Origin: Rhodospirillales bacterium
GTDB taxonomy: Bacteria; Pseudomonadota; Alphaproteobacteria; ATCC43930; CGMCC-115725
Direction: 5' to 3'
Assembly (NCBI GenBank): GCA_028288725.1
Contig: JAQGIC010000018.1
Location: 1-64,000 of the forward strand
DNA length: 64,000 nucleotides
This document shows, one piece after another, positions 6,366 through 46,797 of this stretch. A program made the position numbers and the translations under genes. Position 1 is the stretch's first letter. Each line of letters starts with the position of its first letter. Under the pieces are notes generated by a model. The model worked only from the letters and a program-made list of their open reading frames with translations, made no database searches and was not told the origin of the DNA.

Positions 6366-6865
6366 GCGATATCCGCACGATCCCCCTTATCGCAAGGCGA
6401 GCGACACCGGAGGCCATGGCGCCCTACGGCGCCTTGGTCGAACCCGGCATCGACGGCACGCCGTTCGGCGAGGTGGATGCACGTCTCGAGCTCGCGCGCG
6501 GCACGCCTCGGCTTTACATCATGAAGCTGCATCGAAAACCGCTGCACGTCACCGCCATCACCCGCCATGCGGCAGTGACCCAATGCCTGGCGGCGATGGG
6601 CGGTGCCGAATGGCTGATCGCCCTGGCACCGCCGGGCAATCCGGATCTGCCCGGCGCCGAACCCGATCCCGAGCGGGTGGAGGCGTTTCGCATCCCGGGC
6701 GATCGGGCGGTGGCCTTGCATCGGGGCACCTGGCACGCCGGGCCGTACCTGCTCGATCCCACCGTCGATTTTCTCAACCTGGAGCTTTCCGACACCAACC
6801 TGGTCGATCATCACACCGTCAGACTCGACCGCCGCTTCGGCGTGGCGTTCGAAATCATTCCCTGA
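6362..6865 (+). CDS. Ureidoglycolate lyase family protein (AllA-like)
   Basis: A 167-residue cupin-fold protein matching the ureidoglycolate lyase family, which splits ureidoglycolate into glyoxylate and urea. Hallmarks are the H-x-A-x-T-Q segment (RHAAVTQCL), the FRIPGD turn, RGTWHAGP and the terminal block FLNLELSDTNLVDHH. The length is typical of the family (about 160-170). It sits between the alpha/beta hydrolase and the amidase. In this setting the natural substrate may be a substituted ureidoacid instead of ureidoglycolate itself. No urease or allantoinase is seen in the window. Confidence 0.8.
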   Translation: MSDIRTIPLIARRATPEAMAPYGALVEPGIDGTPFGEVDARLELARGTPRLYIMKLHRKPLHVTAITRHAAVTQCLAAMGGAEWLIALAPPGNPDLPGAEPDPERVEAFRIPGDRAVALHRGTWHAGPYLLDPTVDFLNLELSDTNLVDHHTVRLDRRFGVAFEIIP

Positions 6866-36408: not shown

Positions 36409-37797
36409 CTAGATCGTGAAGGCGTCCGCCGTCATCCGGCCCAGAAGCAGCCAATAGTCGACCCAGGCACGCAGGCCGTTGCGCAGGCTGGACAGCCGAA
36501 AGAATTCGTTGGGCGCATGGTAATCTTCGTCCACGGTGGAAAAAGAGAAGAACACCGTGTCGATCCCCAGCACGCGGCTGAAGATCTCGCCGATCGGGAT
36601 CGTGGCGCCCATCCGCACGCGCAACGGCTTGCGCCCCAGGACGTCGGTCAGAACCCGCTCGGCCAAGGTCAGTCCCGGATGGTCGTCACGAATGGCATAG
36701 GGCAGCGCCAGGTGATCGGGAGTGTCGACGGTCAGGCGGAACGAGGGTGGGCAGACCGCGCGCAAATGCGCCGCGATCGCCTGCTGCACGGCGGCGGGAT
36801 CCTGGCCGGGCACCAGCCGGCACGAGATCTTGGCATGCGCCGTGCTCGGAATGACCGTCTTGGAACCCGGACCGGTATAGCCGCCCCACAGGCCGTTCAG
36901 CTCCAGCGTCGGCCGGATCCAATTGCGCTCCAACAGCGAATAGCCGGTCTCGCCGCCCGGCCCGTCGGCGCCGATTTCAGCCAGGTAGCCGGCCTCGTCG
37001 AACGGAATATCGGCGATCGCCATCCGCTGCGCATTGCCGATCGGCTTCATGCCGTTGTGGAATCCCGGCACCGCGACCCGACCGTCCGGCTCATGCAGCG
37101 TCGCGACCATCGCCGCGATGCCGGCGAGCGGGTTGGGGGCGGAGCCGCCATGACGGCCGGAATGCAGATCCTTGGCGGCACCCTCGAGGGTAAATTCCAG
37201 CGTGCAGATGCCACGGCTCGCGACGGTGATGGTCGGCAGATCGGCGCGCCACATGGCACCGTCCGCCGACAACACGAAATCGGCGGCGAGCTCGTCCCGA
37301 TGCTCGGCCACGAAGGCTTCGAGATTGGCGCTGCCCATCTCCTCCTCGCCCTCGATCAGAAATTTGACGTTGACCGGCAGTCTACCCTCGGTCTGCAGGA
37401 ATGCCTCCACGACCGCCATCGGGATCAGGACCGGCCCCTTGTCGTCGGAAACCCCGCGCGCATAGAGGCGGTCGTTGCGGATGGTCGGTTCGAACGCCGG
37501 CGTGATCCAGCGCTCGGCCGGATCGGGCGGCTGCACGTCATAATGGCCGTAGATCAGGATGGTGGGCGCACCCGGCGCGCCGAGCCAGCTTGCGGTCACG
37601 ACCGAATGGCCGGCGGTCTTGCGCACGGCGGCGTCGTTGAGACCGGCAGCGCGCAGACGCGCCGCCACCCAGTCCGCGCCGCTCCGCATTCCTGCCGCAT
37701 AGGCCGGGTCGGTCGAGACGGATGGGATGCGCGCGAAGGCCATCAAATCGTCGAGGATCGCCTGATAGCGGGTTTCGAGATAGGTTTGCGGGGTCAT
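36409..37797 (-). CDS. M20-family dipeptidase
   Basis: A 462-residue M20 dipeptidase of the CNDP/PepV-like type. Metal residues are canonical: H85 and D87 (YGHYDVQPP), D118 (GVSDDKG), E151/E152 (GEEEMGS), D179 (SADG), and the interface histidine in KDLHSGRHGG. ATG 37797 overlaps the SDR stop by ATGA; the longer frame to 37956 is antisense to nothing but overlaps the SDR gene and is rejected. It likely hydrolyses dipeptides delivered by the divergent peptide-type transporter at 41458-46797. Confidence 0.93.
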   Translation of the reverse strand: MTPQTYLETRYQAILDDLMAFARIPSVSTDPAYAAGMRSGADWVAARLRAAGLNDAAVRKTAGHSVVTASWLGAPGAPTILIYGHYDVQPPDPAERWITPAFEPTIRNDRLYARGVSDDKGPVLIPMAVVEAFLQTEGRLPVNVKFLIEGEEEMGSANLEAFVAEHRDELAADFVLSADGAMWRADLPTITVASRGICTLEFTLEGAAKDLHSGRHGGSAPNPLAGIAAMVATLHEPDGRVAVPGFHNGMKPIGNAQRMAIADIPFDEAGYLAEIGADGPGGETGYSLLERNWIRPTLELNGLWGGYTGPGSKTVIPSTAHAKISCRLVPGQDPAAVQQAIAAHLRAVCPPSFRLTVDTPDHLALPYAIRDDHPGLTLAERVLTDVLGRKPLRVRMGATIPIGEIFSRVLGIDTVFFSFSTVDEDYHAPNEFFRLSSLRNGLRAWVDYWLLLGRMTADAFTI

Positions 37798-38558
37798 TTG
37801 CCGCCATCCACGCTCAGGGTCTGCCCAGTGATCCAGCCGGCCGCTGCACTGGCGAAGAACATGACGCCATAGGCGATATCGGCCGGCGCGCCGAGCCGGT
37901 GGGTCGCGATCCGCTCGATCAGCGCCTTTTGCCCGTCGGGACCGTAGCTTTCCCATTGCCGTTCCGTCGTCGGATTGGACCGCACGAAGCCGGGAGCCAC
38001 GCTGTTGACGGTGATGCCGTCTCGCCCCAGCTCATGGGCGAGTTGCCGGGTGAGACCGATCTGCGCCGCCTTGGCGGCCGCATAGGCCTGAATGCCGGTC
38101 AGACTGACGCCGAGGCCGGCGCCGCTCGAGATATTCACGATCCGCCCGTACCCCCGCGCCTTCATGGCGGGCACGACCGCCTGGGCGCACAGGAAACTGC
38201 CGGTCGCATTGACCGCGAAGATCCGGTTCCAGTCCGCTTCCGTCACCGTCTCGATCGGACGACCGACCTGGCCGCAGACGCCGCCGGCATCGTTGACCAG
38301 CACATCGATCCGGCCGGTCTTCGTCAGTGCCGCCGCGGCAAAATCCTGCACCTGGGCTCGGTCGGCAACATCGACGAACCGGGTCGCGATCGGTGCCGGG
38401 GCGGTGGCTGCCGTTTCGGCCAGCCCCGCTTCATTGATGTCGGCGGCCCAGACGCTGGCGCCCCGGGCGGCGAATTCATGGGCGATCGCGCGGCCGAGCC
38501 CGTGGCCGGCGCCGGTCACCAGAACCGTCTGCCCGTCGAAAGTGAAATGATCCGTCAT
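37794..38558 (-). CDS. Short-chain dehydrogenase/reductase
   Basis: A 254-residue SDR. The cofactor motif TGAGHGLG is at residues 15-22; the usual NNAG appears as NDAG; the catalytic S-Y-K set lies in ISSGAG and AYAAAKAAQ. The C-terminal GWITGQTLSVDGG is typical of the family. Both ends overlap neighbours by ATGA, showing tight translational coupling with the ketopantoate-reductase-like and M20 genes. Substrate unknown. Confidence 0.9.
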   Translation of the reverse strand: MTDHFTFDGQTVLVTGAGHGLGRAIAHEFAARGASVWAADINEAGLAETAATAPAPIATRFVDVADRAQVQDFAAAALTKTGRIDVLVNDAGGVCGQVGRPIETVTEADWNRIFAVNATGSFLCAQAVVPAMKARGYGRIVNISSGAGLGVSLTGIQAYAAAKAAQIGLTRQLAHELGRDGITVNSVAPGFVRSNPTTERQWESYGPDGQKALIERIATHRLGAPADIAYGVMFFASAAAGWITGQTLSVDGGK

Positions 38559-39604
38559 GCCGATTCCTCCGAGCGCGCGTGGCCGACCCGGTCGGCCAGC
38601 AGATCGAGTGTCGACCAGGCAAGCGGACGCCGCCCGTCCTCGATGTCGTGAATGAGTGCGATCAAAGTCGCCGTGATCGGTACCTGCCGCCCGAGCCGGG
38701 TCGCGGCATCGACGATCGGGCCCAGTTGCGCGTCGACCTCGGTCTTGCGCTTGCGCACCGCCAGGTCGCGCCAGATGCCGCTGTGGGATTTGGCGGAACG
38801 GCGGTTGTGGGCAACCATGGCCGCGAAGGAGAGATCGCGCGCGGCCGGGTCCGCGTCGGGGCGGAATGCCTTCGGCTCGAACCCGTTGAAGCCTTCCGGT
38901 GCGACACCGACGGCGTCGGTGATGGCCGTCACCTCCTCGCCGAGCGCGGACAGCAGCGGCCGATAGGGTGCGGCATCCAGCACATCGACGATCGAGGCAT
39001 CGGTCAGCGCGGTCGCGAACAGCAGAGCGCCGTAGCCGAGCTTGCCCCAAAGATAGCCCCAGATGTTGGGGGTCATGATCGCGCCCGGCTCGAACTCAGT
39101 CCGGATCAGCCCGGCCAGCGAATCCAGCCGGGGTGTCGGCGCCCCATCGAGTTCGCCCAGCACGAAGGCGCCGCGGCCGCCGAAATGGATCCGCCCCGGC
39201 GCCAAATAATCCGCGCCGAAATTGACGAAGGCGCCGATAGTGCGCTCGGCCCCGACCGCCTCGGCAATCACCAGCTCGTTGAGACCGTTCTGTAGCGACA
39301 GGACATAGCCGTCCGGCGCCAGGTGCGGCGCCACTGCAGCGATCGCGGCTGGGGTGTGATGCGCCTTGACGCACAGAAAGATCCGCTCGAAGCGGCCCGT
39401 GACCTCGTCCGGCAGGAAAGCCCGACCGGTCACCGAAAAATTGTCGATCGGTCCTTCGATCGCGAGTCCGGTGCGGTTGATCGCGGCGACATGGTCGACA
39501 TCCACGTCGACGAAGACGATTTCATGGCCCGATCGGCGCAGATAGGCACCGACCGTGCCGCCGATCGCGCCGGCGCCCCAGATCAGGATCGGCCCGGCGG
39601 TCAT
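38555..39604 (-). CDS. Ketopantoate reductase-like dehydrogenase (ApbA/PanE family)
   Basis: A 349-residue NADP-dependent dehydrogenase with the ApbA/PanE fold. The Rossmann motif GAGAIGG is at residues 10-16, the family lysine in FLCVKAHHT near 95, and SLQNGLNE near 117. The C-terminal helical domain includes WGKLGYGALLFATALTDA. It is about 50 residues longer than E. coli PanE. Because of its operon with amidohydrolase and peptidases, a catabolic role on a 2-keto/2-hydroxy or opine-like acid is more likely than pantothenate synthesis. ATG 39604 overlaps the creatininase stop. Confidence 0.85.
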   Translation of the reverse strand: MTAGPILIWGAGAIGGTVGAYLRRSGHEIVFVDVDVDHVAAINRTGLAIEGPIDNFSVTGRAFLPDEVTGRFERIFLCVKAHHTPAAIAAVAPHLAPDGYVLSLQNGLNELVIAEAVGAERTIGAFVNFGADYLAPGRIHFGGRGAFVLGELDGAPTPRLDSLAGLIRTEFEPGAIMTPNIWGYLWGKLGYGALLFATALTDASIVDVLDAAPYRPLLSALGEEVTAITDAVGVAPEGFNGFEPKAFRPDADPAARDLSFAAMVAHNRRSAKSHSGIWRDLAVRKRKTEVDAQLGPIVDAATRLGRQVPITATLIALIHDIEDGRRPLAWSTLDLLADRVGHARSEESA

Positions 39605-40302
39605 GGCCAACCACTCTCCAGCAGCTCGCGCGTCTCTTCGACGGCGACCTGCCACAGCGCCAGCATTTCCTCATCGGGTCGCTGGTACAGGCCGCCGAAA
39701 TTGCCGTCGCCCAGCATCTCGCGCACGCGTGCCGGGTCCATGGTGCGGACACGATCGACTTCGACCATCGGCTTCGCCTCGCGCGGCGGTGCCACATTGC
39801 CGATCTGGGTCCAGGGAAAGCTTTCCATCCAGGACGCGTGGCTGGCCACCGGATCGATCGCGTTGACCTTCGCCCAGGTCCGGGGCGAGTTCCACCAGTT
39901 GTGGAAGCGGACGCTCGTGCCCGGATGATCGGCCATCCATTCGGACGCCAGCGCCTGAACCGGATTGTTGCCGCCATGGCCGTTGACGATGAGAATGCGC
40001 CGGAAGCCTTGGGAAAACAGCGCGTCCAACACGTCGCGGACGATCGCCAGCATCGTATCAATGCGCAGGCTGACCGTGCCCGGAAACGCCTTGAAATAGG
40101 GCGTGATACCGTAGTTCACGGTCGGGAACACCGGCACGCCCAGCGGCTCGGCCGCATCGCGCGCGACTTTTTCCGGCAGGATGGTATCGACCGACAAGCT
40201 CAGGAACCCATGCTGCTCGGTGCTGCCGATCGGCAGCACGGCCCGGTCATCTTGCTTCAGGTATTCTTCGACCTGGAACCAGGTCATTTCGCTGATCATC
40301 AT
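39601..40302 (-). CDS. Creatininase-family amidohydrolase
   Basis: A 233-residue member of the creatininase family, metal-dependent enzymes that open lactam or cyclic amide rings (creatininase, ArfB formamide hydrolase) or clip peptides (MftE). Metal residues expected by motif are E29, H31 and D39 (PIGSTEQHGFLSLSVDT) and the histidine in NGHGGN near residue 112. It overlaps the regulator stop by one base (TGATG). Two ATGs stand side by side at 40302 and 40299. It is the first enzyme after the regulator, so ring or amide opening may be the entry step. Confidence 0.88.
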   Translation of the reverse strand: MMISEMTWFQVEEYLKQDDRAVLPIGSTEQHGFLSLSVDTILPEKVARDAAEPLGVPVFPTVNYGITPYFKAFPGTVSLRIDTMLAIVRDVLDALFSQGFRRILIVNGHGGNNPVQALASEWMADHPGTSVRFHNWWNSPRTWAKVNAIDPVASHASWMESFPWTQIGNVAPPREAKPMVEVDRVRTMDPARVREMLGDGNFGGLYQRPDEEMLALWQVAVEETRELLESGWP

Positions 40303-41288
40303 CAGGCGGTCTCCTTCAATCGGATCACGGCGGCATTGCCGCTCAGGCGTTCGAGCAGCGGCTTCAGGCTGCGGTCGATATCGAGCGGGTCGGGTGTATG
40401 TCGGTAATGGATCGGGCGCACCGATGCCGGCAGCCGTGCCATCAGCTCTTCGGCACCGGTGGCAAGCACCACCACGTCCAGCGGCGCCAGAAAGGCGTCG
40501 ATGCCCGAATCGTCCAGCATCGTGGTCGCGAGTTCCGGGATATGCGGCGCGAACCGCGCGACGCCCGCCTTCATGATCGGCAGAAACTCCGGCACGGTCG
40601 ACACCAGGCCGAGACGGGTGCGAGGATCGAGTTCGGCCAGTTCCCGTCGCGTTGCCTCAGCGGGGATGAAGCTCAGCACCTGGATCGGCGTCTCGTCGCC
40701 GATCAGCCGACGCAGATCACCGGCGCGATTGGCCACGGTCAGCAGCAGATCCGACGCCCTGGCCGCCGCAAGCGCGACAGGATCGGCCACGAGACGCTCG
40801 AAGGTGACGCCGACGACGCTGTCGGCTCCGGCGAGATCGGCGCGGAGGTCGACGACATAGCCCTCGGTCGCGGTCTCGTAATTGCCGACGAAGGTCAGCA
40901 GCAGGCCGGAATGGCGCCCGGCCAGGGGGCCCGCCGTCCCACCATCGACCATTGCCGCGAGTTGGCTACGCCCGATGCCAAGGGCGGCAGCTTCGACCGT
41001 CAAGGCTCGGATCTTGGCGGCGAGCCGGCCGAGCGGACCGTCCAGGGTCACGTCGCCCGAGACGAAGGTGCCGCGGCCGGGTTCAGAGCGGATGACGCCC
41101 GCCGCCTGCAATTCCTTGAAGACTTGCGCCACCGTCATCGCGGCCACGCCCAGGTCCTCTGCCATACGCCGCACGGACGGCAGCCGCTCGCCCCGCTTCA
41201 GCTCGCCGCAGGCCACGCCATATTCGATCAGGCCGCGCAACTGGACGCCAAGCGAGATCGGCAGCGTTCTATCGAGAGTGACGATCAT
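40302..41288 (-). CDS. GntR-family regulator with binding-protein-like effector domain
   Basis: A 328-residue transcription factor. The N-terminal winged helix-turn-helix (residues 5-77, LPSVRRMAEDLGVAAMTVAQVFKEL and GRGTFVSG) is followed by a domain of about 240 residues that lacks FCD, UTRA or MocR hallmarks and looks like a periplasmic-binding-protein/LacI-type or Asp/Glu racemase-like fold (VGVTFERLV, VLSFIPAEATRRELAEL, DVVVLATGAEEL). It heads the leftward operon and is divergent from the peptide transporter. Paired inverted elements at 41304-41330 and 41415-41441 are its likely operators, implying autoregulation. Confidence 0.88.
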   Translation of the reverse strand: MIVTLDRTLPISLGVQLRGLIEYGVACGELKRGERLPSVRRMAEDLGVAAMTVAQVFKELQAAGVIRSEPGRGTFVSGDVTLDGPLGRLAAKIRALTVEAAALGIGRSQLAAMVDGGTAGPLAGRHSGLLLTFVGNYETATEGYVVDLRADLAGADSVVGVTFERLVADPVALAAARASDLLLTVANRAGDLRRLIGDETPIQVLSFIPAEATRRELAELDPRTRLGLVSTVPEFLPIMKAGVARFAPHIPELATTMLDDSGIDAFLAPLDVVVLATGAEELMARLPASVRPIHYRHTPDPLDIDRSLKPLLERLSGNAAVIRLKETA

Positions 41289-41303: not shown

Positions 41304-41330
41304 AAAACCATACTAGTAGGTTAGAACGCT
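41304..41330 (-). promoter_or_regulatory. Operator-like element, left copy
   Basis: A 27-base element 16 bases upstream of the GntR start, built of AAAACC, TACTAG and TAGAACGCT blocks. It matches the reverse complement of 41415-41441 at 21 of 27 positions. The mismatches fall mainly between the TACTAG and TAGAACGCT blocks, as expected for conserved contact sites around a spacer. Confidence 0.7.
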
Positions 41331-41414
41331 TCTTTCTTGGGCGCAACGGCCGCTAGCACAATTTTTTACCGGTATCCGCCCCTGATCGCTTGACCTACCC
41401 CGATATGGGGCCGT

Positions 41415-41441
41415 AGCGTTCTATTTACCTAGTACGGTTTT
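41415..41441 (+). promoter_or_regulatory. Operator-like element, right copy
   Basis: This is the inverted mate of the element at 41304-41330, ending 16 bases before the binding-protein ATG. Each copy stands at almost the same distance from the gene it faces, as expected of a symmetric divergent control region read by the GntR regulator. Confidence 0.7.
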
Positions 41442-41457
41442 GGCGACGGGAGCGACG

Positions 41458-43044
41458 ATGGCGCGATGGCAGCTCACGATTTCGGCCACGCTGCTCCTTG
41501 CGCTCGGTTGCTCCGGCAACGCCGATGCCGCCCCGGTCCGGGGCGGCCAGATGATCTATGCCCGCGCCTGGGATTCGCTCTATCTCGACCCGGTGCTGAA
41601 TGACGCCAATGTCGACATCTGGGTGTTGTCCAACCTCTACGACACGCTGCTGGAACCGAGCGCGGACGGCAAATCGGTGACGCCGGGCCTGGCGACCGCT
41701 TACGAACTGTCGCCGGACCGGCTGACCATGGCCCTTGCTCTCCGCCCCGGCATCCGCTTCGCCGATGGCACGCCGGTGCTGGCGAGCGACGTCAAGTTTT
41801 CGCTCGACCGGGCCCGCGATCCCAAGGCAGGGCAGTGGAATTTCATGCTGGCCGCGATCGACAATGTGACGGCGGCCGCGCCGGACCGGGTCGAAATCCG
41901 CCTGAAGCATCCGGACCCGACCCTGCCGGCGGCGCTGGCGACCTTCAATACCGGTATCATGCCGGAACGGGCCTTCATGGCGGAGCCCGGCGCTACCCTC
42001 GACGACAAGGCAGAAAGCTTTGCGCGGCATCCGATCGGCGCCGGCCCGTTCCGCCTGGCCGAATGGCATCGCAACTTGTCCATGGTTCTGGAACGCAATC
42101 CCTATTACTGGGCACCCGGCGAGGATGGCAAGCCGTTGCCCTACCTCGACACGCTGCGCTTCGAGATCGTGCCCGACGACGCGACCCGCATCCTGAAGCT
42201 GCAAGGGGGCGAGGTCGACGGCGCCGAGTTCATTCCGCTCGCCCGCGCTGCCGAGTTGGCGGGCGATCCCGACCTGCAGATGCGGCTGTTTCCGGCCAGC
42301 GAGGTGACCTACCTAACCTTCATGACCAGGCCGACGCTGAAGGACGGCAAACCCAATCCGCTGACCGATCCCCGCGTGCGCCAGGCGCTCAACTATGCGC
42401 TCGATAAGGACGCCTTCATCCACGTGGTGCATTTCGGCAACGGCAAGCCCATGACGTCGTTCATGCCGTCGACGACCCCGCTCGCGGTTGCCGAAGCGCC
42501 GCTTTATCCGTTCGACCCGGCGCGCGCAAAGATGCTCCTGGCCGAAGCCGGGTTCGCCAAGGGCTTCGATCTCTCCGTCATGATCCGCGCCGGCAGCGCC
42601 GAAGATATCGCCGTCGCCTCGGTCGCGCAGCAGATGTGGGGCGAGGTCGGCGTTCGGCTCAGCCTCGAACAGCTCGACAATGCCACGATGACCGCGCGCT
42701 ACCGCGCCGGCGATTTTCAGATACGCACGGGGACCTGGACCAACGACATCGCCGATCCGAGCGAGATCACCGCCTATTTCGCCTATTCGCCGAACATCGA
42801 ATCCCAGCATTCCGGTTTCAAGGATCCGGTCATCGACGCGGATTTCGAGGCGAGCCAGAAGGAAACCGACCCGGACAAGCGCGCGGCACTCTACCGGGAA
42901 ATCCAGACCCGGTTCGATGAAGCGGCGCCGATCGCCTTCCTGTTCGAATCGCCCTACGCCGTGGCTCTGCGCAAGCCGGTCACGGGGTTCGACCAGATCC
43001 CGCTCGGCAACAATATCTTTGCCGCCACCTATATCGGGGACTGA
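41458..43044 (+). CDS. Peptide-type solute-binding protein, family 5
   Basis: A 528-residue periplasmic family 5 binding protein. The signal peptide is at residues 1-24 (LLLALGCSGNADA); the cysteine at 18 is not in a canonical lipobox, so lipidation is uncertain. Family features are LALRPGIRFADGTPVLASDVKFSL near residue 90 and RQALNYALDKDAF near residue 310, each in short blocks. GGGAG precedes ATG 41458. It heads a complete DppABCDF-like transporter divergent from a peptidase/creatininase operon. Confidence 0.92.
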   Translation: MARWQLTISATLLLALGCSGNADAAPVRGGQMIYARAWDSLYLDPVLNDANVDIWVLSNLYDTLLEPSADGKSVTPGLATAYELSPDRLTMALALRPGIRFADGTPVLASDVKFSLDRARDPKAGQWNFMLAAIDNVTAAAPDRVEIRLKHPDPTLPAALATFNTGIMPERAFMAEPGATLDDKAESFARHPIGAGPFRLAEWHRNLSMVLERNPYYWAPGEDGKPLPYLDTLRFEIVPDDATRILKLQGGEVDGAEFIPLARAAELAGDPDLQMRLFPASEVTYLTFMTRPTLKDGKPNPLTDPRVRQALNYALDKDAFIHVVHFGNGKPMTSFMPSTTPLAVAEAPLYPFDPARAKMLLAEAGFAKGFDLSVMIRAGSAEDIAVASVAQQMWGEVGVRLSLEQLDNATMTARYRAGDFQIRTGTWTNDIADPSEITAYFAYSPNIESQHSGFKDPVIDADFEASQKETDPDKRAALYREIQTRFDEAAPIAFLFESPYAVALRKPVTGFDQIPLGNNIFAATYIGD

Positions 43045-43047
43045 CGG

Positions 43048-43986
43048 ATGGGATATTGGCGCTTCGTTCTACGGCGACTGCTGCAATCGGCACCGACCTT
43101 CGCGCTGATCACGGTGCTGATCTTCCTGCTGGTCCGCCTGCTGCCCGGCGACCCGGCCAGTGCCATGCTGGGCGATCGGGCAACGGACGAGGCCGTGGCC
43201 CGGATCAATGCCTCGCTCGGCACCGACCTGCCGATCGCGTCACAATTCCTGCGCTTCCTCGGACGCCTGCTGTCGGGCGACCTCGGCCAGTCCCAGGCCC
43301 TGCACGTGCCGGTCACGGAACTGATCGGCGAGCGGATGCCGGTGACGTTGCTGCTGGCGGCCTATGCCATGGTCCTGGCGACGCTGATCTCGATCCCGCT
43401 GGCCTTTCTGATGGCGCTCTATCGGGACCGGCCGCTCGACATCGCGCTGCGCGGCGCGTTCCAGCTCGGTCTGTCGATGCCGACCTTCTATCTGGGACTG
43501 CTGTTTCTGACCGTGCTCGGCGCCCACCTGCGCATCTTCCCGGTCGGCGGGCTCGGCCGCGGACCGGTGGGCATTCTCTATCACCTGTTCCTGCCGGCAC
43601 TGACGCTGGCCCTTGGCCTGGCGGCGGTCATCACGCGCAGTCTGCGCGCCGCGATCCTGGAGGTGCTGCAGGCCGACTACATCGATTTCGCCCGAGCCAA
43701 AGGCCTGTCGGAACGGGTGGTGCTGGGCCGGCACGTCCTGCGTAACGCGCTGATTTCGACCGTTACCCTGTTCGGCATCAATCTGGGCCAACTCATCGGC
43801 GGCGCGGTCATCACCGAGACGGTGTTCTCGTTGCCGGGCGTCGGCCGGTTGCTGATCGATGCGATCTTCGGGCGGGACTATCCGGTGATCGAGGGCCTGA
43901 CCATGTGCTTCGCCGTGCTGGTCTCGATCATCTTCATCGTGACCGATCTGTTCCAGGCTTGGCTCGATCCCCGGGTGTACCGATGA
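43048..43986 (+). CDS. Dipeptide-type ABC transporter permease (DppB family)
   Basis: A 312-residue DppB/OppB-type permease: RLLPGDPASAMLGDRAT near residue 33, QFLRFLGRLLSGDLGQS near 75, EAA loop DYIDFARAKGLSERVVLGRH near 210 and ETVFSLPGVGRLLIDAI near 255. It starts three bases after the binding-protein stop and ends in an ATGA overlap with the DppC-type gene. Confidence 0.93.
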   Translation: MGYWRFVLRRLLQSAPTFALITVLIFLLVRLLPGDPASAMLGDRATDEAVARINASLGTDLPIASQFLRFLGRLLSGDLGQSQALHVPVTELIGERMPVTLLLAAYAMVLATLISIPLAFLMALYRDRPLDIALRGAFQLGLSMPTFYLGLLFLTVLGAHLRIFPVGGLGRGPVGILYHLFLPALTLALGLAAVITRSLRAAILEVLQADYIDFARAKGLSERVVLGRHVLRNALISTVTLFGINLGQLIGGAVITETVFSLPGVGRLLIDAIFGRDYPVIEGLTMCFAVLVSIIFIVTDLFQAWLDPRVYR

Positions 43987-44816
43987 CGGTCGATACCGTC
44001 GACCGGCGGCCGAACCGCCTGCAGCCCCCGCTGATCTTCGGCACCGCCATCCTGACCTTGATGCTGATCACGGCATTGCTGCCGCAATTCGTGGCGCCTT
44101 ACGATCCCACCCGGTTCGACTATCACGCGACGCTGGCGCCGCCCAGTCTGGCCCATCTGTTCGGCACCGACATGTATGGCAGGGACATCCTGTCGCGCAT
44201 CTTGTGGGCGACCCGGATCGATCTGCAGATCGCCGTCTTCTCGACCGTGGGTCCGGTCATCGTCGGCACTTTGATCGGCACGCTGGTCGGCTATTACGGC
44301 GGCTTTGCCGATATCGTCCTCAATCGGCTGGTCGATGTGGTGGTGACCTTTCCGTTCCTTGTCCTGGTCATCGGCATCATCGCCATCCTGGGGCCCGGGC
44401 TGACCAATCTCTATATCGCCATCGGCCTGGTCGACTGGGTGTTCTTCGCCCGCCTCGCCCGGGCCGAGATCCTGGTGCAGCGCCGGCTGGACTATGCCCA
44501 TGCCGCGCGCGGTCTGGGCTATGGCCCTGCCCGGATCATCTTCCGTCACCTGCTGCCGAACGCGATCGGGCCGATCATCACCTATTGGATGACGGACATG
44601 GCGCTCGCCATCCTGCTGGGCTCCAGCCTCGGCTATCTGGGACTGGGGGCGCAGCCGCCGCTGGCCGAATGGGGCGCGCTGATCGCCGACGGCAAGAATT
44701 TCATGGCGACCGCCTGGTGGATCACGGTGTTCCCCGGCATCGCCATCGTCGTCGCCGGGTTCGGTTTCAGCCTGGCCGGCGACGGCGTCGCCGATCTGCT
44801 AAGGCGGCGCGAATGA
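43983..44816 (+). CDS. Dipeptide-type ABC transporter permease (DppC family)
   Basis: A 277-residue DppC/OppC-type permease with FGTDMYGRDILSRILWATR near residue 60 and the EAA region LDYAHAARGLGYGPARII near 170, then YLGLGAQPPLAEWG. Both ends overlap neighbours by four bases (ATGA), so the start at 43983 is well supported over a longer upstream frame. Confidence 0.93.
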   Translation: MTVDTVDRRPNRLQPPLIFGTAILTLMLITALLPQFVAPYDPTRFDYHATLAPPSLAHLFGTDMYGRDILSRILWATRIDLQIAVFSTVGPVIVGTLIGTLVGYYGGFADIVLNRLVDVVVTFPFLVLVIGIIAILGPGLTNLYIAIGLVDWVFFARLARAEILVQRRLDYAHAARGLGYGPARIIFRHLLPNAIGPIITYWMTDMALAILLGSSLGYLGLGAQPPLAEWGALIADGKNFMATAWWITVFPGIAIVVAGFGFSLAGDGVADLLRRRE

Positions 44817-45802
44817 CCGAAAATCTTCTGGAAGTGCACGGCTTGCGGACCGAATACCGCAGCGATGGCCGCCGTTTCACCGCGGTCGATGGTATCGACT
44901 TCACCGTCGGTCCCGGTGAGATCCTGGGCCTGGTCGGCGAATCCGGCTCCGGCAAGAGCGCCACGCTGCGCTCGATCCTTGGCCTGATCAAACCGCCCGG
45001 TCGGGTCGAGGGTCGGATCCTGTGGCGAGGCCGGGACATCCACGGCCTGGCGCCATCGGCGCTTCAGCGGGTGCGCGGCGCCGAAATCGCGATGATTTTC
45101 CAGGACCCGATGACCGCACTCAACCCGGTGCTGACCGTCGGCCAGCAGATCCGGGAAAGCCTGGCCGCGCACACCGACCTGTCCGCGTCGGACCGGCAGC
45201 GGCGCGCCATAGAACTACTCGACCTCGTCGGGATTCCGGCCGCGGCCAGCCGGCTCGACGATTACCCCTACCAGTTCTCCGGCGGCATCCGGCAGCGCGC
45301 GATGATTGCCATAGCGCTTGCGGCCAAACCGGCGCTGCTGCTGGCGGACGAACCGACCACCGCGCTCGACGTCACCATCCAGGACCAGATCATCAAGCTG
45401 ATCCAGCGCCTTGCCGCCGAGCTTCGAATGAGCGTCATCCTCGTCACCCACGACCTGGGGGTGGTGGCGGAAAGCTGCGATCGCGTCGCGGTCATGTATG
45501 CCGGCCGCATCGTGGAGACGGCGCCGGTCGCGACGCTGTTCCGATCGCCTCGGCACGCCTATACGCTTGGTCTGCTGCAATCGATGCCGGTGGGACGGTC
45601 ACCCCGCACGCCCCTGCCCTTCATTCCCGGCGCCCCGCCGCGCCCCGGCGACAGCTTGAATGGCTGCGCCTTCGCCGCCCGCTGCGCCTTCGTCGGCGAC
45701 GAATGCCGGCATGGCCGTCCGGAAACCCGGCACGTTGGGCTTGATCACATGACCTTATGTCGGCGCGCCGAGGCGTTGCCTGCTGCGCTGGAGCCGGCAT
45801 GA
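44813..45802 (+). CDS. Dipeptide-type ABC ATPase (DppD family)
   Basis: A 329-residue ATPase: Walker [11 protein letters not shown]-loop [19 protein letters not shown], signature FSGGIRQR, Walker [15 protein letters not shown]. The C-terminal cysteine-rich segment ([14 protein letters not shown], then a later cysteine) is the site that in some DppD proteins holds an iron-sulphur cluster. Starts in an ATGA overlap with DppC and ends in another with DppF. Confidence 0.93.
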
Positions 45803-46797
45803 CCAAGCGATTGCTCGAGGTTGCGGATCTGACCAAAGGCTTCGTCACGCGCGGCGCCGACGGCCGGATAGCGCAGCTGAAGGCGCTGCGCGGCGTCAGC
45901 TTCACGCTCGATCGCGGCGAGACGCTGGGCATTGTCGGCGAATCCGGCAGCGGCAAATCCACGCTCGCACGGTCGGTCGTCCGCCTGATCGAACCCGACG
46001 GGGGCAGCATCCGGTTCGATGGAACCGATGCGCGCCGGCTGTCGGGCCGCGAGCGTTCCCAATTCAACCGTCGCGTCCAGATGGTGTTCCAGGACCCCTA
46101 CAGCTCGCTCAATCCGCGCATGACGGTGCGGGCCGCGCTGGCCGAGGCGATCGGCGTGCATCGCTTGCGCCCGCCGGCGGCGGTCGACGGGCGGATCGCC
46201 GAACTGCTCGATCTGGTTCAGTTGCCACAAGAGGCGGCCGAGCGCTATCCACGTGATTTCTCCGGTGGACAGCGCCAGCGCATCGGCATCGCGCGGGCAC
46301 TGGCGGTCGAACCCGACTGCCTCATCGCGGACGAGATCGTCTCGGCCCTCGACCTGTCGATCCAGGCGCAGATCATCAATCTGTTGCTGGAACTGCAGGC
46401 GCGGCTGGACCTCGCTATTCTGTTCATCTCGCACGATCTGCGCATCGTCCGGCATATCTCGCATCGGGTCGGGGTCATGTATCTGGGGGAGATCGTCGAA
46501 ACCGGTGGCGCCGAGCAGGTCTTCGCCGATCCCCGTCACCCCTATACCCAGGCCCTCATCGCGGCCGCGCCGACCCTCGATCCCGGCCGACGAGGGCGGC
46601 AGGAAGCCGTCCACGGCGAGTTGCCGAGCCCGATCGATCTACCAGCGGGCTGCAGCTTTGCCAGCCGTTGCGTTCATGTGATGGAGCGCTGCCTGACCAT
46701 GCCGCCCGCACTCTTGTCGGTCGACCGCACGCGTGCCGCACGCTGCTATCTAACGGAGAATGCAGCGCCACCAGCACTTCGGGAAAAATCGCCGTGA
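45799..46797 (+). CDS. Dipeptide-type ABC ATPase (DppF family)
   Basis: A 332-residue ATPase: Walker [11 protein letters not shown]-loop MVFQDPYSSLNPRMTV, signature FSGGQRQR, Walker B CLIADEIVSALD, and C-terminal cysteines (GCSFASRCVHVMERC). The ATG at 45799 overlaps the DppD stop by ATGA. It completes the five-gene transporter and converges on the threonine-synthase-like gene at 46859. Confidence 0.92.
   Translation: MTKRLLEVADLTKGFVTRGADGRIAQLKALRGVSFTLDRGETLGIVGESGSGKSTLARSVVRLIEPDGGSIRFDGTDARRLSGRERSQFNRRVQMVFQDPYSSLNPRMTVRAALAEAIGVHRLRPPAAVDGRIAELLDLVQLPQEAAERYPRDFSGGQRQRIGIARALAVEPDCLIADEIVSALDLSIQAQIINLLLELQARLDLAILFISHDLRIVRHISHRVGVMYLGEIVETGGAEQVFADPRHPYTQALIAAAPTLDPGRRGRQEAVHGELPSPIDLPAGCSFASRCVHVMERCLTMPPALLSVDRTRAARCYLTENAAPPALREKSP

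Follow-up and report, generated by a model that had tools for sequence, protein, structure and literature searches.

The window, by which we mean the whole stretch of 64,000 nucleotides analysed here, carries a divergent gene cluster in which the starts of a gntR regulator gene and of the first gene of a Dpp/Opp-type (dipeptide/oligopeptide) ABC transporter lie face to face across a 169-base intergenic region (Table 1). Downstream of gntR (start codon ATG at 41288-41286) lie genes for a creatininase-family hydrolase, two dehydrogenases and an M20 dipeptidase, and downstream of the substrate-binding protein gene (ATG at 41458) lie the permease and ATPase genes of the transporter. Both start-codon regions contain CGRGAGYGACGAT (41273-41285 and 41447-41459, 11 of 13 positions), which probably reflects similar ribosome-binding contexts.

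Table 1. Genes, promoter elements and putative operators of the divergent locus (positions in the window).
Feature	Coordinates	Strand	Basis or remark
gntR (GntR-type regulator, 328 aa)	40302..41288	-	PF00392, E 3.4e-12; structure models
Creatininase-family hydrolase	39601..40302	-	PF02633, E 9.3e-45
Ketopantoate-reductase-like (PanE/ApbA) dehydrogenase, ORF as listed	38555..39655	-	PF02558
Short-chain dehydrogenase (SDR), domain in the 3' half of the ORF	37794..39050	-	PF13561
M20 dipeptidase, true start internal to the ORF	36409..37956	-	PF01546; NCBIfam PRK08201 dipeptidase above cut-off
Substrate-binding lipoprotein of family 5; leads the divergent transporter genes	41458..43044	+	PF00496, E 1.7e-88
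Two permeases and two ATPases of the same Dpp/Opp-type ABC transporter	43048..46797	+	PF00528, PF00005, PF08352
27-base element	41304..41330	+	Inverted repeat with 41415..41441
27-base element	41415..41441	-	Inverted repeat with 41304..41330
gntR-side operator (putative), imperfect palindrome GCGTTCTA-ACCTAC-TAGTATGG read on the - strand	41308..41329	.	13.2 bits, rank 2 of 64 kb
Transporter-side operator (putative), imperfect palindrome GCGTTCTA-TTTACC-TAGTACGG	41416..41437	.	17.8 bits, rank 1 of 64 kb
TTGACC, -35-like hexamer in the transporter promoter, gap of 22 bases to GTTCTA	41390..41395	+	Same position (gap 21 or 22) in 42/64 loci
TAGCGT, possible weak -10 hexamer at an 18-base spacer; the operator overlaps it	41414..41419	+	Inferred from the -35 position
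Third half-site copy TAGAACGCT in gntR codons 6-9, not a full operator	41263..41271	-	9-mer present only three times in the window

The initial annotation had described two 27-base elements in this intergenic region as inverted copies that match at 21 of 27 positions, are separated by an 84-base spacer and lie about 16 bases from the start codons they face. Identity and spacer proved exact on recheck, and the gaps came to 15 bases for gntR and 16 for the substrate-binding protein. Dinucleotide shuffling of the 169-base region (1000 replicates) gave top inverted 27-mer pairs with 15.2 matching positions on average and 19 at most, versus the 21 observed. The full 27-base pattern had no match elsewhere in the 5.5 Mb genome with up to three mismatches. 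The meaningful unit is, rather than the 27 bases, a 22-base palindrome within each element: read alongside the upstream regions of relatives, both elements hold an imperfect CTGTTMTA-N6-TAKAACAG, and their outer AAAACC and final T are unconserved. The TACTAG and TAGAACGCT blocks noted earlier are the two half-sites of this palindrome, which fits the NyGT-Nx-AC-Ny kind of the GntR superfamily (consensus from PMC4494728).

Iterative training gave a matrix with this consensus (58 sites, 17 bits). The window was scored with a version built from 52 sites of other genomes only, the source genome being left out; this held-out matrix returned 17.8 and 13.2 bits at the two sites, with a third-best score of 6.7 across the 64 kb. 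The lower-scoring operator, on the gntR side, has one weak half, TAGTAT. The third TAGAACGCT copy, some 50 bases away from the middle of the gntR-side operator, could be an additional half-site. Searching the genome for further targets with the core pattern at one mismatch recovered one window site and two others, and these three matches are fewer than the 10 of a reversed control, so that a wider regulon in this genome is without support.

The initial annotation had singled out the absence of the elements from homologous loci as an outcome against its proposal; on checking, they are present there. With a site defined as 7.5 bits or more within 260 bases of gntR, at least two sites were found in 64 of 81 loci, one in 10 and none in seven; among the loci fetched after the matrix was built, 38 of 53 had at least two. 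Two sites, one per start, are the usual arrangement where gntR diverges from its neighbour gene. In six Deinococcus loci, where gntR lies inside a single operon, one strong site precedes the first gene, that of the substrate-binding protein (D. peraridilitoris and D. actinosclerus have weaker second sites, of 10.2 and 9.3 bits). The seven loci without a site near gntR are those of distant enterobacterial homologues (29-32% identity), in which gntR comes after the gene in the transporter position. By the rule of one site per promoter, the enterobacterial site is expected before the gene ahead of gntR, and in sequence fetched afterwards it was found there in five of the seven loci (12.8-24.0 bits), each time about 1.8-1.9 kb upstream, in a divergent intergenic region and as the best site of 14 kb; the other two had no site above threshold further upstream either. 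In one rhizobial subgroup (L101-L104 and L106), the distal site shares bases with an ATG (GTGTACTAATGGAATATATCAA) of the divergent frame, and the site on the gntR side directly adjoins that gene's start codon.

The transporter-side operator also holds a constant position relative to a promoter element: in 42 of 64 loci, the window included, GTTMTA is preceded at a gap of 21 or 22 bases by a hexamer that matches TTGACA in at least five positions. At ordinary spacing from this -35, the -10 and the start point fall under the operator, and a protein bound there should therefore exclude RNA polymerase. A strict sigma-70 consensus scan found no promoter on either side of the intergenic region, and the gntR side of the window offered no clear candidate.

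The AlphaFold model of the regulator comprises a winged helix (residues 1-80), two helices (85-118) and an alpha/beta domain (about 128-315). The GntR-type winged helix scores 46.3 bits against a Pfam cut-off of 27, and its conserved arginine, R40, corresponds to the Arg-G contact described for GntR proteins (PMC4494728). Structure comparison of the model shows that residues 1-118 resemble YtrA-type and HutC-type proteins. The C-terminal domain had been called unusual, and this was borne out: it has no Pfam match in the window protein and only scattered weak ones in relatives, and it matched nothing in the PDB by sequence. Modelled alone, with high confidence (pLDDT 93), it loosely matches the folds of CbiX, PnrA/BmpD, the LacI family and the PrpR sensor, with ferrochelatase tied (Z 8-9.7, rmsd 4-5 Å), and on the model these matches lie too close together for naming a family, other families being possible as well.

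GntR divergons with double, operon-specific sites have been described for the FadR and HutC subfamilies (Suvorova et al. 2015, PMC4494728), and there, as here, the regulator gene is divergent from the regulated operon, two palindromic sites lie one near each start, and spacing grows with intergenic length. Unlike in those divergons, the DNA-binding module here is closest in fold to the YtrA type, whose sites almost never lie between divergent operons (PMC4494728). The winged helix superposes on that of YvoA/NagR (HutC subfamily) at 1.0-1.5 Å over 77-80 residues, and the operator is likewise palindromic; the HutC consensus GTMTAKAC, however, spans 8 bp from GT to AC versus 18 bp here, and we set this subfamily aside for want of a UTRA effector domain (Pfam gives PF00392 alone, the C-terminal part being unmatched). 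The FadR subfamily was rejected since no FCD or all-helical C-terminal domain is present (no Pfam match, and an alpha/beta domain in the model), as was the MocR subfamily, whose aminotransferase-type C-terminal domain has about 350 residues, against about 190-250 here with no aminotransferase match in Pfam.

The YtrA-type repressor of Sulfolobus acidocaldarius, whose mapped site lies over the transcription start (PMC6746942), shares the winged helix and two helices (model residues 1-118) with our regulator, and the likeness to this subfamily extends to a long-spaced palindrome, a site covering the transcription start and ABC transporter targets. YtrA proteins have a short C-terminal domain of two helices (about 50 residues), whereas here helices 85-118 are followed by an extra alpha/beta domain of about 190 residues, and the regulon is divergent with two sites; membership proper was thus rejected. 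AraR of Bacillus subtilis similarly joins a GntR-type winged helix to an alpha/beta part resembling a ligand domain and uses multiple operators. The LacI/GalR homology typical of the C-terminal part in the AraR subfamily has no Pfam or PDB sequence match here; our C-terminal part is shorter than that of AraR, and its resemblance to LacI and periplasmic-binding folds is loose, tied with CbiX and ferrochelatase. As modelled, then, the regulator is a YtrA-like DNA-binding module joined to an undescribed alpha/beta domain.

Taken together, the comparative sequence data strongly support an operator interpretation: the two elements are very probably the operators of the adjacent GntR-type autoregulating repressor, one for each divergent promoter. 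The observations behind this are the motif, its conservation, its link to the regulator family, the presence of one site per promoter and the fixed -35 position; binding by the gntR protein, dimer stoichiometry, the sign of regulation and the ligand are what we infer, as follows. A regulator dimer would bind the 22-base palindrome and, on the transporter-side site, would cover the -10 and the predicted transcription start, blocking RNA polymerase. The gntR-side site would act likewise, resulting in autoregulation of the gntR-creatininase-PanE-SDR-M20 operon. The ligand of the C-terminal alpha/beta domain would probably be the transported compound or a breakdown product, and the ligand-bound regulator would leave the DNA, so that uptake and breakdown are switched on together.

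Other readings of the two sites were weighed against repression. Some GntR proteins, such as GabR and CitO, are known to activate transcription, and the regulator here could activate one of the two promoters, or act there as a dual regulator under ligand control; the sites, however, are downstream of the -35 and cover the -10/start region, a placement typical of repressors, which makes activation quite improbable. The sites might also belong to another regulator with gntR as an incidental neighbour, but the motif tracks the gntR family across classes and a phylum boundary and shifts to the head of the operon where gntR sits inside it, and we give this very little credence. On paper, a long RNA stem could form between the two inverted arms (-46.3 kcal/mol). 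Such folding is ordinary compared with shuffles (z -1.63, 10 of 200 as good), each arm is itself a conserved palindrome, and spacer and distance vary freely in relatives; a stem, or the ends of a small mobile element, is extremely improbable.

Joint repression of the peptidase operon and the peptide transporter, as proposed in the initial annotation, is supported insofar as operators are predicted for both the enzyme operon and the divergent transporter and the sites are kept across relatives; its further suggestion of DNA looping over the 84-base spacer is unsupported. Under looping, the sites would act as one unit, with touching dimers and a DNA loop of about 108 bases, the centre-to-centre distance in the window, giving tight joint repression. 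Two sites do occur in nearly every divergent locus, spacings lean to whole helical turns (R 0.37, p 0.001 in 80% identity clusters; R 0.33, p 0.03 at 65%), and AraR, another GntR-type chimera, is a known precedent for looping (cited in PMC4494728). The phasing is nevertheless gone with 55% clusters (p 0.35), the window's own spacing corresponds to 10.3 turns, and the single-operon loci keep one strong site. The inter-site distance, moreover, ranges from 73 to 227 bases (at L096 there are two upstream sites, and taking the nearer produced one of the low values) and is larger where the intergenic region is longer (r 0.46, p 1e-4 over 64 loci, uncorrected for kinship and with divergent starts assigned automatically), whereas the gap between the gntR start and the site on its side, 17 bases at the median, does not depend on that length. 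This combination matches the operon-specific class of Suvorova et al. (PMC4494728), and we consider looping unlikely. Rather unlikely, too, is a fuller version, namely an undescribed GntR subfamily with a YtrA-like module and a small two-lobed ligand-binding domain, in which a phase-sensitive loop between the paired sites ties the uptake of a peptide-like or opine-like nutrient to its breakdown.

With one repressor site per promoter as the preferred reading, the wiring is ordinary: a local repressor controls both promoters of the divergon and switches a peptide-type pathway of uptake and breakdown on or off in a conventional way. What sets the system apart is the domain combination of the regulator. 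Literature searches on this gene combination, with partial journal coverage by which absence is not proven, found no paper. The predicted operator is a testable handle on a widespread, seemingly uncharacterised regulator type; with its motif the regulon can be located in any genome, and the candidate substrates become fewer. A pathway cassette also takes shape from these data: the transporter, the creatininase-family hydrolase, the PanE-like and SDR dehydrogenases and the M20 dipeptidase occur together in Proteobacteria and Deinococcus, frequently on plasmids. Alpha-, beta- and gammaproteobacteria all have the cassette in its divergent form, which most fully fetched loci keep; the Deinococcus version is a single operon of the same genes, with gntR placed centrally.

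Among near relatives the regulator itself is uncommon, being present in 2 of 43 genomes of the order; the source genome has a 56% paralogue, and a 48% homologue occurs within the same family. Elsewhere it is scattered over Rhizobiaceae, the family of Bosea, Burkholderiaceae, Enterobacterales, Roseobacteraceae and Deinococcus, and this scattered, often plasmid-borne occurrence suggests spread by horizontal transfer. On a Klebsiella IncFIB conjugative plasmid (pCRE-243_1, L053), the transporter-gntR-creatininase part lies between insertion sequences, and the other enzyme genes of the cassette are absent. In the source genome (G000), contig C67 carries a paralogous gntR-creatininase-PanE cluster (L033, noted at 6440-6625) with its own operator pair (19.8 and 7.6 bits) and a different substrate-binding protein of low identity. 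At 2611-2694 of the same contig there is a short open frame that shares 75% identity with residues 69-96 of the regulator (28 residues) and is perhaps the remnant of another regulator copy.
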